Assembly: GCA_019114515.1 (NCBI GenBank)
Contig: DXFH01000028.1
Location: forward strand, 1 to 52,883
Direction: 5' to 3'
Origin: Candidatus Limosilactobacillus merdigallinarum
GTDB lineage: Bacteria; Bacillota; Bacilli; Lactobacillales; Lactobacillaceae
DNA: 52,883 bases
The notes beneath the pieces were generated by a model, which saw only the letters and a program-made list of their open reading frames with translations, had not been told where the DNA came from and did not search any database. This document shows, one piece after another, positions 43,527 to 48,664 of the stretch; position 1 is the stretch's first letter, and every line of letters begins with the position of its first letter. The translations under genes were made by a program, and so were the position numbers.

Positions 43527-44647
43527 TTAGTCAATAAAATGTTCTTGATTATATTTATGCACAAATTCCGCAAAAAACGGCAATGATAAGCAGACAATTC
43601 CACGTTGCGGTGAAGTGATTAACTGGTCATTTAACAAACGTGCACGGTAAACCGAAATATAATTAGTTGGTTTGTTTAAAATCGCTTTGAGCTGGCTAGT
43701 AGATACTGCCGGCGTACCAGCCTTGACAATGGCATTGATAAAGACACGATCCGTGTTGGAAATGTCCATATACATTCTTTCATAGGCATTTCTAAACAAG
43801 TCTACTTTAGCGGCATCAAAAGTCTGCTCCATTACTTGCTCATCAATAAGCAACGATTTCTGACTAAAGCGCCATGCATAGTAACCAATCGTTTGAAATG
43901 CATATGCATAACCTTTAACTGCCTTACAAAGTTTATCAAGGACAACATAATCAATTTGTCGTTCTCCTGTTTTAAAGGTTTCTTCATAGCTTCTTGATAC
44001 AGACCATTCGTCCAATGGCGTTAAGTAAACCCGGTGACTCCTTAACAAAAATGTCAATGTATCATCGTTCTGTACTTCAGAAATACGACTTGGCAGTCCT
44101 GTCATTAGTAACGATATATCGTAATCCTGTCCAATAAGCGTCTGATATTCAGAGCCAAAAGCGCGTACATCATCACTGACCGAAATCTCATCAATACCTA
44201 TCAGAACAGATTTACCTCTTTTTTGAGTTGCTCTAATAAGACTGGTAAGTAATCATCATAATCAATTTGACCAGACTGTTCTAAAGTCTTGAAAGTCACG
44301 CCACTCCCCATAATGTTAATGCCATTAATCTTTGTCAAAAGATCCACTAATGATACCCCAGTTGCGCGTTGTAACCCGTGTAACAGCTGAAAGAGCAGGT
44401 TCCCTTGACCATTACTTAACCGAATAAAGCACCAGTTATCTAGCTTTTCTAGTGACCGTTGTACATTGAGTAAAAAGACCGTTTTTCCTGCGCCACGTGT
44501 CCCATACACCAATGAGGTCTGGTATTTCGCATCATGAGTTTGCAAACCAGTCAAATAGTCAGTTAACGCTTCTTTTTGACTAATTACAATTTTGGGAAAG
44601 AGACCAAAGCTTGGCATGAACGGATTCAGCATTTCTTTATTCATCAT
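43527..44647 (-). pseudogene. AAA/Orc1-like ATPase, single -1 frameshift
   Basis: Two frames form one ATPase of about 373 residues. The first (44647-44201) has Walker A GTRGAGKT near residue 54 and stops soon after KKEVNLF. The other frame continues KRGKSVLIGIDEIS (Walker B) and runs to 43527, ending in a winged-helix-like region (VSTSQLKAILNKPTNYISVYRARL). The break lies at a run of six A (minus strand; T at 44219-44224): one extra A, or a -1 slip, restores the frame. The family is the DNA-binding AAA_16/Orc1-like ATPases of lactobacilli; role unknown. Confidence 0.85.
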
Positions 44648-44663
44648 AGCTCACACCTCTTAA

Positions 44664-44758
44664 TTTATACTTTCTTTATACTATTTTTATACTTTGCTGT
44701 CACTGTTTTATACTTCTTTTATACTTCGCTATTCTCGTTTTATACTTCCTTTATACTT
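44664..44758. repeat. Iteron-like array of seven 9-bp repeats
   Basis: TTTATACTT starts at 44664, 44686, 44707, 44718, 44739 and 44750, with one variant TTTATACTA at 44675. Steps are 11, 11, 21, 11, 21 and 11 bp, all near one or two helical turns, so every copy faces the same side of DNA. It lies 17 bases upstream of the AAA ATPase start and includes its promoter region. Confidence 0.9.
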
Positions 44759-44808: not shown

Positions 44809-45261
44809 TTACTTCTGCTGCGCTTCAAATGTCAACAGCAACTTCTTGCGTTCAATGCCACCACTATAGCCAGTCAGGCTACCATCTTTGCCCATCACCC
44901 GATGACAAGGGATCATCAATAAAACATGATTTTGTCCGACTGCTCTACCAACAGCGCGTGGACTGCTACCAAGGCCTTGTGCCAGTTGACTATAAGTAAC
45001 GGTCGTACCGTATGGTAATTTTTGTAATTGATGCCAAACCCGTTCTTGAAATTGTGTGCCAATAAGATGCAATGGCGGTAACTCCGACGGTTCTTGGCCC
45101 ATAAAATACTGGTCCAGCCAAATAATGCCCTGTTGAATAAACAAATTATTTGCTTCTGCTTCAGACACTGTATCTTCACTGAACTTTACTTTGGTAATTC
45201 CTTCTTCATCAGCTTCAATAACGATGTTGCCTAAAGGAGAGCGGTAATTAACGCGTACCAT
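44809..45261 (-). CDS. ogt: Methylated-DNA-protein-cysteine methyltransferase
   Basis: A 150-residue suicide repair protein that removes O6-methylguanine. The active-site motif IPCHRV lies near residue 118, and the helix-turn-helix YGTTVTYSQLAQGLG precedes it. ATG 45261 follows AGGAGATGATTTG; an in-frame start at 45279 would add six residues. The neighbouring AAA ATPase gene is on the same strand, but the terminator separates them. Confidence 0.93.
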   Translation of the reverse strand: MVRVNYRSPLGNIVIEADEEGITKVKFSEDTVSEAEANNLFIQQGIIWLDQYFMGQEPSELPPLHLIGTQFQERVWHQLQKLPYGTTVTYSQLAQGLGSSPRAVGRAVGQNHVLLMIPCHRVMGKDGSLTGYSGGIERKKLLLTFEAQQK

Positions 45262-45365
45262 CAAATCATCTCCTGTCATTTCGTGAATAAAATATCATTT
45301 TTTAATCTTTAAAAATTTTTAGAATACAATAAGAATTGTAATTAAGCTAAAGGAATCATCGATCA

Positions 45366-46695: not shown

Positions 46696-46879
46696 TATGA
46701 AACATCCTTTCTATTACAAACCCTCTTATCCACCTCTTATGATAATCATAAATGTTCACGTGTGCAACTGTTTTTATAACAAGGTTTATTAAAAGTAACG
46801 AATAGAAAAGAGCCTTGCCGAAAGAAAGTGAAAAGAGTAAATTGAGTGCAAAGTACTCTTGCATACAGGGATGAAAAAT

Positions 46880-48664
46880 ATGACTAAAAACTTGCCAGAG
46901 CCGATTGTTTTTCCGACAAAATACAATCAAGAAGAAGCCAGTGAATTAGATACGATTATCAAAAGAGACGTGTCTTCAGAAAGCCAAACATATTTAAGTG
47001 ACTACCCTACTGTGTATATCATCGACCACGCTGGGCCTAACCAAAAGCCCCAATACACCGTTTATGTTGGTGAAACAAATGATATTCAACGGCGTACATT
47101 ACAGCACTTAGACTCAGATCCAGTAGTCAGACAAGATTGGCGACAATTAAAACATACAGCGAATGCCTCTATGTTCATCATCGGTCATCGTCATTTTAAT
47201 AAATCGCTGACCTTAGATATTGAAAATCGCATGATGCACTACCTATCCGGCGTCAGTACGGTTATCCGCCTAAACAATCGACGGGATAATGCGCAAAAAG
47301 ATTATTACACCGCTGATGAAATGGTGCCTATTTTCAATAAAATTTGGCGGAAATTACATAAAATCAAACCTGATTTATTCCCTTTGCAACGGATTGTCGA
47401 AGATTCTGCCCTTTTTAAGGCATCACCTTTTTATAAACTAAACGCTGAACAACTACGAGCGAAAGATCAAATTCTGAATGTAGTGCAAGAGTACCTTAAT
47501 ACTGGCAAAAAGAATCAACTTATTTTGGTGAAGGGTGAAGCCGGCGCCGGTAAAACTGTCCTGATGAGCAATATTTTCTATGCATTAGCGAACTTGAAAA
47601 ACGGTGAACGACCACTGTCGCTGGCAATGATGGTTAACCAAAATGAACAGCAAAAAGTCTACGAGCAAATCGTTAAAAAATTGGCTATCCCTAACGCTAA
47701 AGTAGAAAAAGTGGTTACCTTCATTAGGAAACATCCTCCGCTTACTGAAAATAGCGAATCTAAAAATGCAGTTGACATTGCCTTTGTAGATGAAGCACAC
47801 CTGTTACTAACCCAAAACAATCAAGCATTTACCAAAAAATATGGCAATAATGAACTCCTGGATATTATTAAACGCGCTAAGGTAACAATTGCCGTTTATG
47901 ATGACCATCAAGTGCTGGGCTACAATCAAATCATCGAAAATGATGATCAAAAAAAGATCCAACAATATCATCCGTACACGATTACGCTGAGGAATCAGAT
48001 GCGGATCCATGCATCGGCAGCAATGCTTAATTGGTTGCGTAATATTGTTGATAATCAAACCATCACCAAAGCACCCCAGGATAAGAATTATGATTTAAGA
48101 ATCTTCGACCACCCTGCCGCCATGCAGGAAGCGATTAATAAAAAGGCTAACGAAGACGGTAAAAACGGTATTAGTCGAATGATCGCAACCTTTGATTGGG
48201 ATTATTCTAGTCAGAGCAAGAATAACGACGATCCTGATGGTTTATGGCAAGTATCAGCAGACAATTGGCATATGCCATGGAATAAACAACTTAGTCCAGC
48301 AAAAGACGATAAGAGACAAATTTCAGGAGTGAAATACTCTGACTTATCCTGGGCCGAGCAACCACACACCGTCAGAGAGATTGGCTCTACGTATACGGTT
48401 CAAGGATTCGATTTAAATTATGCGGGCGTCGTAATCGGTCCATCCGTTAAATATAGGAACGGTAAAATCGTTTTTGATCCTTCCGAAAGCAAAGATAAAA
48501 AAGTATATCAGCGCAGGAGCATGCATGACGGATCGAAGCAGGAATACGGTACTACCCTGATCGAAAACACATTTAACGTTTTGATGACCCGAGGCGTCAA
48601 TGGTTTATATCTCTATGCTGTTGATCCTGCTCTGCAAGCAGCGTTGAAAAAGGCGGTTCAGTAG
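46880..48664 (+). CDS. GIY-YIG nuclease fused to DUF2075/Schlafen-3-like helicase
   Basis: A 594-residue two-domain protein. Residues about 33-130 form a GIY-YIG nuclease: TVYII in place of GIY, YTVYVGETNDIQRR with the catalytic Tyr and Arg, and DIENRMM with the catalytic Glu. Residues about 195-590 are a DUF2075 ATPase/helicase with Walker A GEAGAGKT, Walker B DIAFVDEAHLL, RNQMRIH and the C-terminal motifs STYTVQGFDLNYAGVV and NVLMTRG. Start 46880 follows AGGGATG. Such fusions occur in accessory and defence regions; function not proven. Confidence 0.88.
   Translation: MTKNLPEPIVFPTKYNQEEASELDTIIKRDVSSESQTYLSDYPTVYIIDHAGPNQKPQYTVYVGETNDIQRRTLQHLDSDPVVRQDWRQLKHTANASMFIIGHRHFNKSLTLDIENRMMHYLSGVSTVIRLNNRRDNAQKDYYTADEMVPIFNKIWRKLHKIKPDLFPLQRIVEDSALFKASPFYKLNAEQLRAKDQILNVVQEYLNTGKKNQLILVKGEAGAGKTVLMSNIFYALANLKNGERPLSLAMMVNQNEQQKVYEQIVKKLAIPNAKVEKVVTFIRKHPPLTENSESKNAVDIAFVDEAHLLLTQNNQAFTKKYGNNELLDIIKRAKVTIAVYDDHQVLGYNQIIENDDQKKIQQYHPYTITLRNQMRIHASAAMLNWLRNIVDNQTITKAPQDKNYDLRIFDHPAAMQEAINKKANEDGKNGISRMIATFDWDYSSQSKNNDDPDGLWQVSADNWHMPWNKQLSPAKDDKRQISGVKYSDLSWAEQPHTVREIGSTYTVQGFDLNYAGVVIGPSVKYRNGKIVFDPSESKDKKVYQRRSMHDGSKQEYGTTLIENTFNVLMTRGVNGLYLYAVDPALQAALKKAVQ

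Follow-up and report, generated by a model that had tools for sequence, protein, structure and literature searches.

What reads the seven 9-bp repeats that precede a solo AAA+ ATPase gene in the 52,883-base stretch of DNA analysed here (the window), and what do they do for that gene? The array spans positions 44664-44758 and, read on the minus strand in the sense of the ATPase gene, comprises six AAGTATAAA units and one deviating unit (TAGTATAAA at 44675-44683); on the forward strand, TTTATACTT starts at 44664, 44686, 44707, 44718, 44739 and 44750, and TTTATACTA starts at 44675. The seven repeats that an earlier note on this DNA had reported, with their steps of 11, 11, 21, 11, 21 and 11 bp, are real and were re-found at their positions, and they lie as claimed between the ATPase start (44647) and ogt (44809-45279, minus strand), which encodes an O6-methylguanine DNA methyltransferase (Pfam PF01035), is the upstream neighbour in the same direction and is outside the ATPase-array module. 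What the same note had called the ogt terminator is an imperfect inverted repeat judged by eye, at a place where a simple scan lists no terminator, and no minus-strand promoter at the window array passes a simple scan. On the far side of ogt, the protein encoded at 46859-48664 combines a weak GIY-YIG match (under the Pfam cut-off) with a Schlafen group 3 type helicase domain.

The window ATPase is in two pieces. An N-terminal part with the start MMNKEMLNPFMPSFG and the Walker A motif GTRGAGKT (44201-44647, minus strand; profile match over positions 1-138) is separated by a frame break near 44.2 kb from a C-terminal part with the winged helix (43527-44105, minus strand; profile match, the open frame extending further upstream), within which the stretch that aligns with L. 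gallinarum residues 323-335, at 43629-43667 (minus strand), is taken as the predicted recognition helix. The break (near 44200) coincides with a short homopolymer run and could be an assembly error or the mark of a decayed gene. Many relatives of this ATPase are intact, at about 350-375 residues, and several are likewise fragments.

Across 45 sequences of the family GxRGxGK is invariant and IDE nearly invariant, as in an AAA+ protein with Walker A and B motifs, and a C-terminal winged helix is predicted (helices at residues 293-304, 312-319 and 323-335, strands over 339-349), both of which are features looked for in Orc1/Cdc6 proteins. The structure model, which was built with six sequences in the alignment and is of moderate confidence (mean pLDDT 69; 77-93 by blocks of ten over residues 291-360; under 50 at residues 196-207), places residue 323 as the first residue of the predicted recognition helix. 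Its best PDB matches are archaeal Cdc6/Orc1 proteins (1fnn, E 2.7e-9; 2qby, 3.3e-9; 2v1u, 3.3e-7) at TM-scores of about 0.35, and model and matches together support, with moderate confidence, the Orc1-like fold with a winged-helix end that had been proposed for the protein. The family as a whole is not recognised by the ORC-CDC6-like profile PF24389, which matches only 3 of the 45 members at E at most 0.01, and the P-loop region resembles ATPase_2 (PF01637), AAA_16 and AAA_22 in 44-45 of the 45 at the same threshold, the window pieces and member L006 being under the Pfam curated cut-offs. NCBIfam gave weak matches, mostly to the P-loop, and we saw no whole-protein family in Pfam or NCBIfam; in the part of the literature that our search reached, we found nothing on such an ATPase family.

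Homologues occur in 34 of 95 genomes, the window's own counted, and in four named Lactobacillus records. Elsewhere in the phylum few genomes have the ATPase (at E at most 1e-15, 6 of 398, not counting that of the window); four short members from there have arrays by eye, with still other units, and three long, distant ones have no array by eye. Plasmid records match the ATPase in 56 of 72,556 cases and reach Pseudobutyrivibrio and actinobacteria. Among the seven plasmid members that we read, the array is clear in Pseudobutyrivibrio and Lactobacillus crispatus, the repeats are weaker in a record labelled Bacillus subtilis, in Arthrobacter and in Collinsella, and no array could be called in Bifidobacterium and Sphingobium. 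A tblastn search (E at most 1e-5) found the ATPase in none of 50,697 phage records, and six protein scans of viral contigs yielded three relatives. We also read 25 ATPase neighbourhoods, one of them (L165) without a recognised family member, and found no neighbour cluster common to more than five. Unrelated contexts, patchy presence and broken copies suggest that the gene is accessory, mobile or selfish. Stand-alone winged-helix ORFs in Levilactobacillus, Lactiplantibacillus and Limosilactobacillus plasmids were considered as a natural test and discarded, the three that we read being 3' remnants without an array.

The arrays are shared well beyond the window. All four named orthologues (73-75% identity to the window C-terminal piece) have ATTATAAA-like arrays just 5' of the gene and keep them despite differing neighbouring genes. 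We collected the upstream regions of 117 members (8 loci without an N-terminal hit were left out), or 108 after six duplicates and three short upstreams had been dropped, and among these exact 8-mer repeats occur at lag 10 in 76, at lag 19 in 49, at lag 29 in 53 and at lag 39 in 43, peaks at which shuffles give about 1. By a rule that asks for at least two of three lag classes, and that was picked with the lag spectrum of these members already in view, arrays are found in 70 of the 108 family upstreams versus 1 of 353 control ORFs (Fisher P 1e-53, a value that treats related members as independent), the controls being ATG-started ORFs of at least 120 codons from 20 stretches of three genomes, which may include non-genes. 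An earlier chain-based caller (at least three copies), with steps fixed near 10-12, 20-23 and 31-33 that missed the 19-bp step, called 54 of the 108 members, 18 of the 353 controls and 77 of 540 shuffles. Many of the 38 upstreams that fail the lag rule are arrays by eye with other steps (9/18, 10/18) or fragments; the array is absent in L024, L028, L035, L038, L054, L071, L115 and L121 and in two members found later, L221 and L222. Most homologous ATPase genes, 70 of 108 by the strict rule, do carry the array, a check that the earlier note had put forward.

The unit itself differs from subfamily to subfamily (AGTATAAA, GTTATAAA, ATTATAAA, GATATAAA, GATCTAAA, GTTCTAAA, CATCTAAA, AGTTTAAA, GATTTAAA, AATGTAAA, GTTGTAAA, ATAGTAAA, ATGCAAAA, GATACACAAA and more), and the usual spacing in the family is 10/19 bp, with 11/21 bp in the window clade. 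The near-whole helical turns that had been noted for the repeats therefore hold for the window copy and its clade (11/21) and fail as a rule of the family (10/19, period 29), and we dropped helical phasing as a family principle on the strength of the lags of 10, 19 and 29. Because the ATGCAAAA subfamily (L092, L093 and L100) has its units at 9/18-bp steps, spacing as well as unit sequence shifts between clades.

Covariation of the unit with the DNA-reading part of the ATPase would not be expected if another protein read the array, and such covariation is what the comparison gave. Starting from 77 full-length members with a callable array, we removed seven with unclear units and then redundancy, which left 59 (<85% identity). 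In this set unit distance follows winged-helix distance when AAA distance (residues 1-280) is held fixed (partial r 0.29, permutation P 0.001, n=59), and the reverse test, unit against AAA distance with the winged helix fixed, gives a partial r of 0.03 (P 0.32, n=59). Sliding windows peak at residues 311-340 (0.27-0.29) and again at residues 181-210 (0.21-0.26), and this second peak means that some unit signal also resides in the later half of the AAA part (partial r 0.16, P 0.006, for residues 141-280 when 1-140 are fixed). Judged by these alignments, the unit varies together with the predicted recognition helix of the ATPase, and this points to the ATPase as the probable reader of the array. 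Residues 181-210, which covary with the unit nearly as strongly as the recognition helix, correspond to 44004-44093 (minus strand) in the window, follow a sensor-1-like strand, are partly of low confidence in the model and may be a second DNA contact.

The association can be followed to single residues, which we tested in the 47 of the 59 members whose units end in TAAA (NNNNTAAA). All 14 members that have G at unit base 2 carry Lys or Arg at residue 323, as does 1 of the 33 others (n=47), and this residue is the top-scoring protein column for that base (z 4.1). Members with A at base 4 have V, I or M at residue 328 (24 of 26), and those with C or T there have Q (13 of 14); this association was read from the table and afterwards tested on new members, residue 328 not being among the twelve best columns in the column test for base 4. 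The window copy is an exception to the residue-323 rule, its unit having G at base 2 and its recognition helix beginning with Thr, where the nearest relatives have Ile or Ala and other members with G at unit position 2 have Lys or Arg.

Both rules had been noted before two further genera were searched, and these supplied a held-out set of 23 new members, 13 of which were set aside (11 for their 86-100% identity to one or other training member, and L221 and L222 for want of an array). The remaining ten (<70% identity to any training member) obey the residue-323 rule in 10/10 cases (five with G and Lys, five with neither) and the residue-328 rule in 10/10, or 9/9 on a stricter count, L215 and L216 looking alike with equal unit. 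One held-out unit, AGTCTAAA, is novel and accompanies Lys 323 and Gln 328, the combination predicted by the rules. Among the members set aside, L202 has a unit called AGTATAAA with Ile, its array being a mixture, and L239 combines A at base 4 with Asn at residue 328. When the two characters are mapped on a tree built from the AAA part alone (57 rows), eight changes are counted for unit base 2 and eight for residue 323, and the rows in which they disagree are L065 and the window; three independent, well-supported pairs change together and none the opposite way, a count that is not significant. Base 4 and residue 328 agree in 54 of the 57 rows, with five supported pairs and none opposite, likewise not significant.

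Where else do such units stand? Exact unit pairs of three kinds, sought in six genomes, gave 15 matches, all 15 upstream of family genes (reversed control 0), at seven loci of which one (L128) is upstream of a family fragment. No exact pair lies beside an unrelated gene in the six genomes searched, an occurrence that the earlier note had regarded as telling against a link with the ATPase; the search sought exact pairs, and weaker or single sites may occur elsewhere. A search of the window's own genome (1.56 Mb, 92% complete) met the pair pattern AAGTATAAA-N0-20-AAGTATAAA solely at the window array, as five overlapping matches (reversed control 0). We then compared first and later unit pairs in those members, 63 of 77, whose unit has TAAA or CAAA at its end and whose array includes a pair. 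In the first pair, TAAAAT closes the second unit in 37 of 63 (later pairs, 28 of 85), a -35-like hexamer (at least 4 of 6) stands 16-18 bp ahead in 36 of 63 (12 of 85), and both promoter-like elements are present in 25 of 63 (9 of 85). By these counts the array tends to cover the putative -35/-10 region together with the start of the transcript, a position that speaks for repression, and the lag spectrum, the arrays at 70 of 108 members and the promoter overlap together have the form of a conserved operator at the gene's own promoter.

We consider it probable (about 0.75) that the array is an autoregulatory operator of the ATPase gene itself, the product being a solo Orc1/Cdc6-like ATPase. The earlier suggestion that the ATPase may bind the array for autoregulation is well supported by comparison (arrays, covariation, held-out rules, exact-pair search), and we infer that the ATPase binds the array directly and cooperatively, that it represses the gene instead of activating it, and that ATP takes part in assembly or release. 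The C-terminal winged helix would read the repeat unit, one winged helix per unit, and several protomers would sit side by side on unit pairs over the promoter and the transcript start, with ATP driving or loosening their assembly on the array; a rising level of the ATPase would then shut its own gene and keep expression low. With a subfamily-specific unit, each ATPase would address its own promoter, and different units would let several paralogues coexist in one genome.

All the evidence for self-binding would fit equally well if the ATPase bound the array as an activator or two-state switch, with positive autoregulation or release on a signal, for example in defence or stress. AAA+ and STAND ATPases often switch with nucleotide, and the ATPase has a weak fold and profile resemblance to RdrA, NRC4 and CED-4; we nevertheless hold this reading to be unlikely, since in many members the first pair covers the -10-like site and the -35/-10 spacer before it, a usual place for repression, a partner gene is common to at most 5 of 25 neighbourhoods, and PADLOC on the two window pieces returned weak matches (E 0.006 or worse). 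Control of the ATPase by a different host protein bound to the array might be argued from arrays that persist at broken genes (L128, L129), but unit changes track the recognition helix of the ATPase itself, and a common regulator would not explain several units per genome, which makes such a protein very improbable.

Much the same low standing, if anything a shade lower, falls to an iteron set of a replication or partition system with the ATPase as its initiator. The Orc1/Cdc6-like fold, the AT-rich direct repeats and the plasmid location of some members fit this reading, but the array is at the promoter, several copies are broken or partial, and 23 genomes carry two or three array-bearing members. 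With up to three array-bearing members per genome, no neighbour shared by more than 5 of 25 loci and an empty phage search, the replication-like function mooted in the earlier note found no support; instead of a Rep gene with iterons on its own replicon, we met large contigs and unrelated neighbours. The window array had no phage match (blastn, low-complexity filter on), and two pattern scans of viral contigs led to three contigs whose 9-10-bp repeats are plain tandem ones and whose six-frame translations contain no family protein. A 4.4-kb Desemzia incerta plasmid record with a rep gene carries an iteron-like row of the AGGAGTATAAAA type (L254 900-1020), which is weakly similar to the window array (E 0.08) and was set aside as a resemblance. 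An origin by chance, or as simple AT-rich sequence, would fit the AT-richness of the unit and the number of single matches, which is about that expected (22 with at most one mismatch in the window versus 19.7 by chance), but 7 of the 22 are concentrated within 95 bases, and the shuffles (about 1) and the 353 control upstreams (1 match) leave this explanation a negligible probability.

Returning to the autoregulatory operator, the 23 genomes with more than one array-bearing member allow paralogues to be compared. Equal units occur in 1 of 39 pairs of paralogues of one genome against a shuffled mean of 2.8, an avoidance that is not significant (P 0.20), and the unit calls of L119 and L123 in this test are doubtful. 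The two family loci of L156 are separated by about 4.4 kb, and neighbouring members also occur in L157, L159 and L169; the adjacent members at these four have different units, and in some cases one is broken. A bolder version, which we put forward tentatively and rate as possible though doubtful, would make gene and private operator an autonomous travelling unit of a large family without a name that extends beyond lactobacilli. Its protein-DNA code would be modular, each unit base being set by one residue of the recognition helix, several copies could share a cell free of cross-talk, and the modules, possibly selfish or immune, might gauge their own copy or foreign DNA.

If the operator reading is true, a widespread, uncharacterised AAA+ family has a built-in binding site beside most of its genes. 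Its dozens of natural protein-site pairs of one fold would offer a direct route to a recognition code, an approach to the question of how transcription is controlled by AAA+ assembly on DNA, and a way into the job of these ATPases beyond self-control.

By predicted fold, the nearest known proteins are the archaeal Cdc6/Orc1 initiators, with a weaker likeness to STAND-type ATPases. The archaeal initiators share the AAA+ domain followed by a C-terminal winged helix and are the best structural matches, and their genes often adjoin origin repeats; the ATPase described here differs in being bacterial, solo and present in several copies per genome with no origin link seen, and its direct repeats come in pairs that cover the promoter region of the ATPase gene itself. 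ATPase_2 (PF01637) and other archaeal or STAND-type ATPases are alike in the P-loop region and unlike in that L006 and the window pieces are under Pfam cut-offs and no family covers the whole protein. Iteron-regulated plasmid Rep proteins autorepress through their iterons, and they share direct repeats about one or two turns apart and a self-controlling winged-helix reader, putative in our case; here, however, the reader would be an AAA+ ATPase with many chromosomal copies and no replicon, and the unit has diversified over the family. DnaA, to which the ATPase has a weak profile similarity, autoregulates through DnaA boxes at dnaA, and would be matched here by another AAA+ protein on its own promoter; its box is common and has many sites, whereas the unit of the ATPase is private, exact pairs being found solely at the gene in six genomes. 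We file the family as a putative variant of autoregulated AAA+ DNA-binding proteins, one that in its logic resembles autoregulated initiators such as Rep or DnaA.
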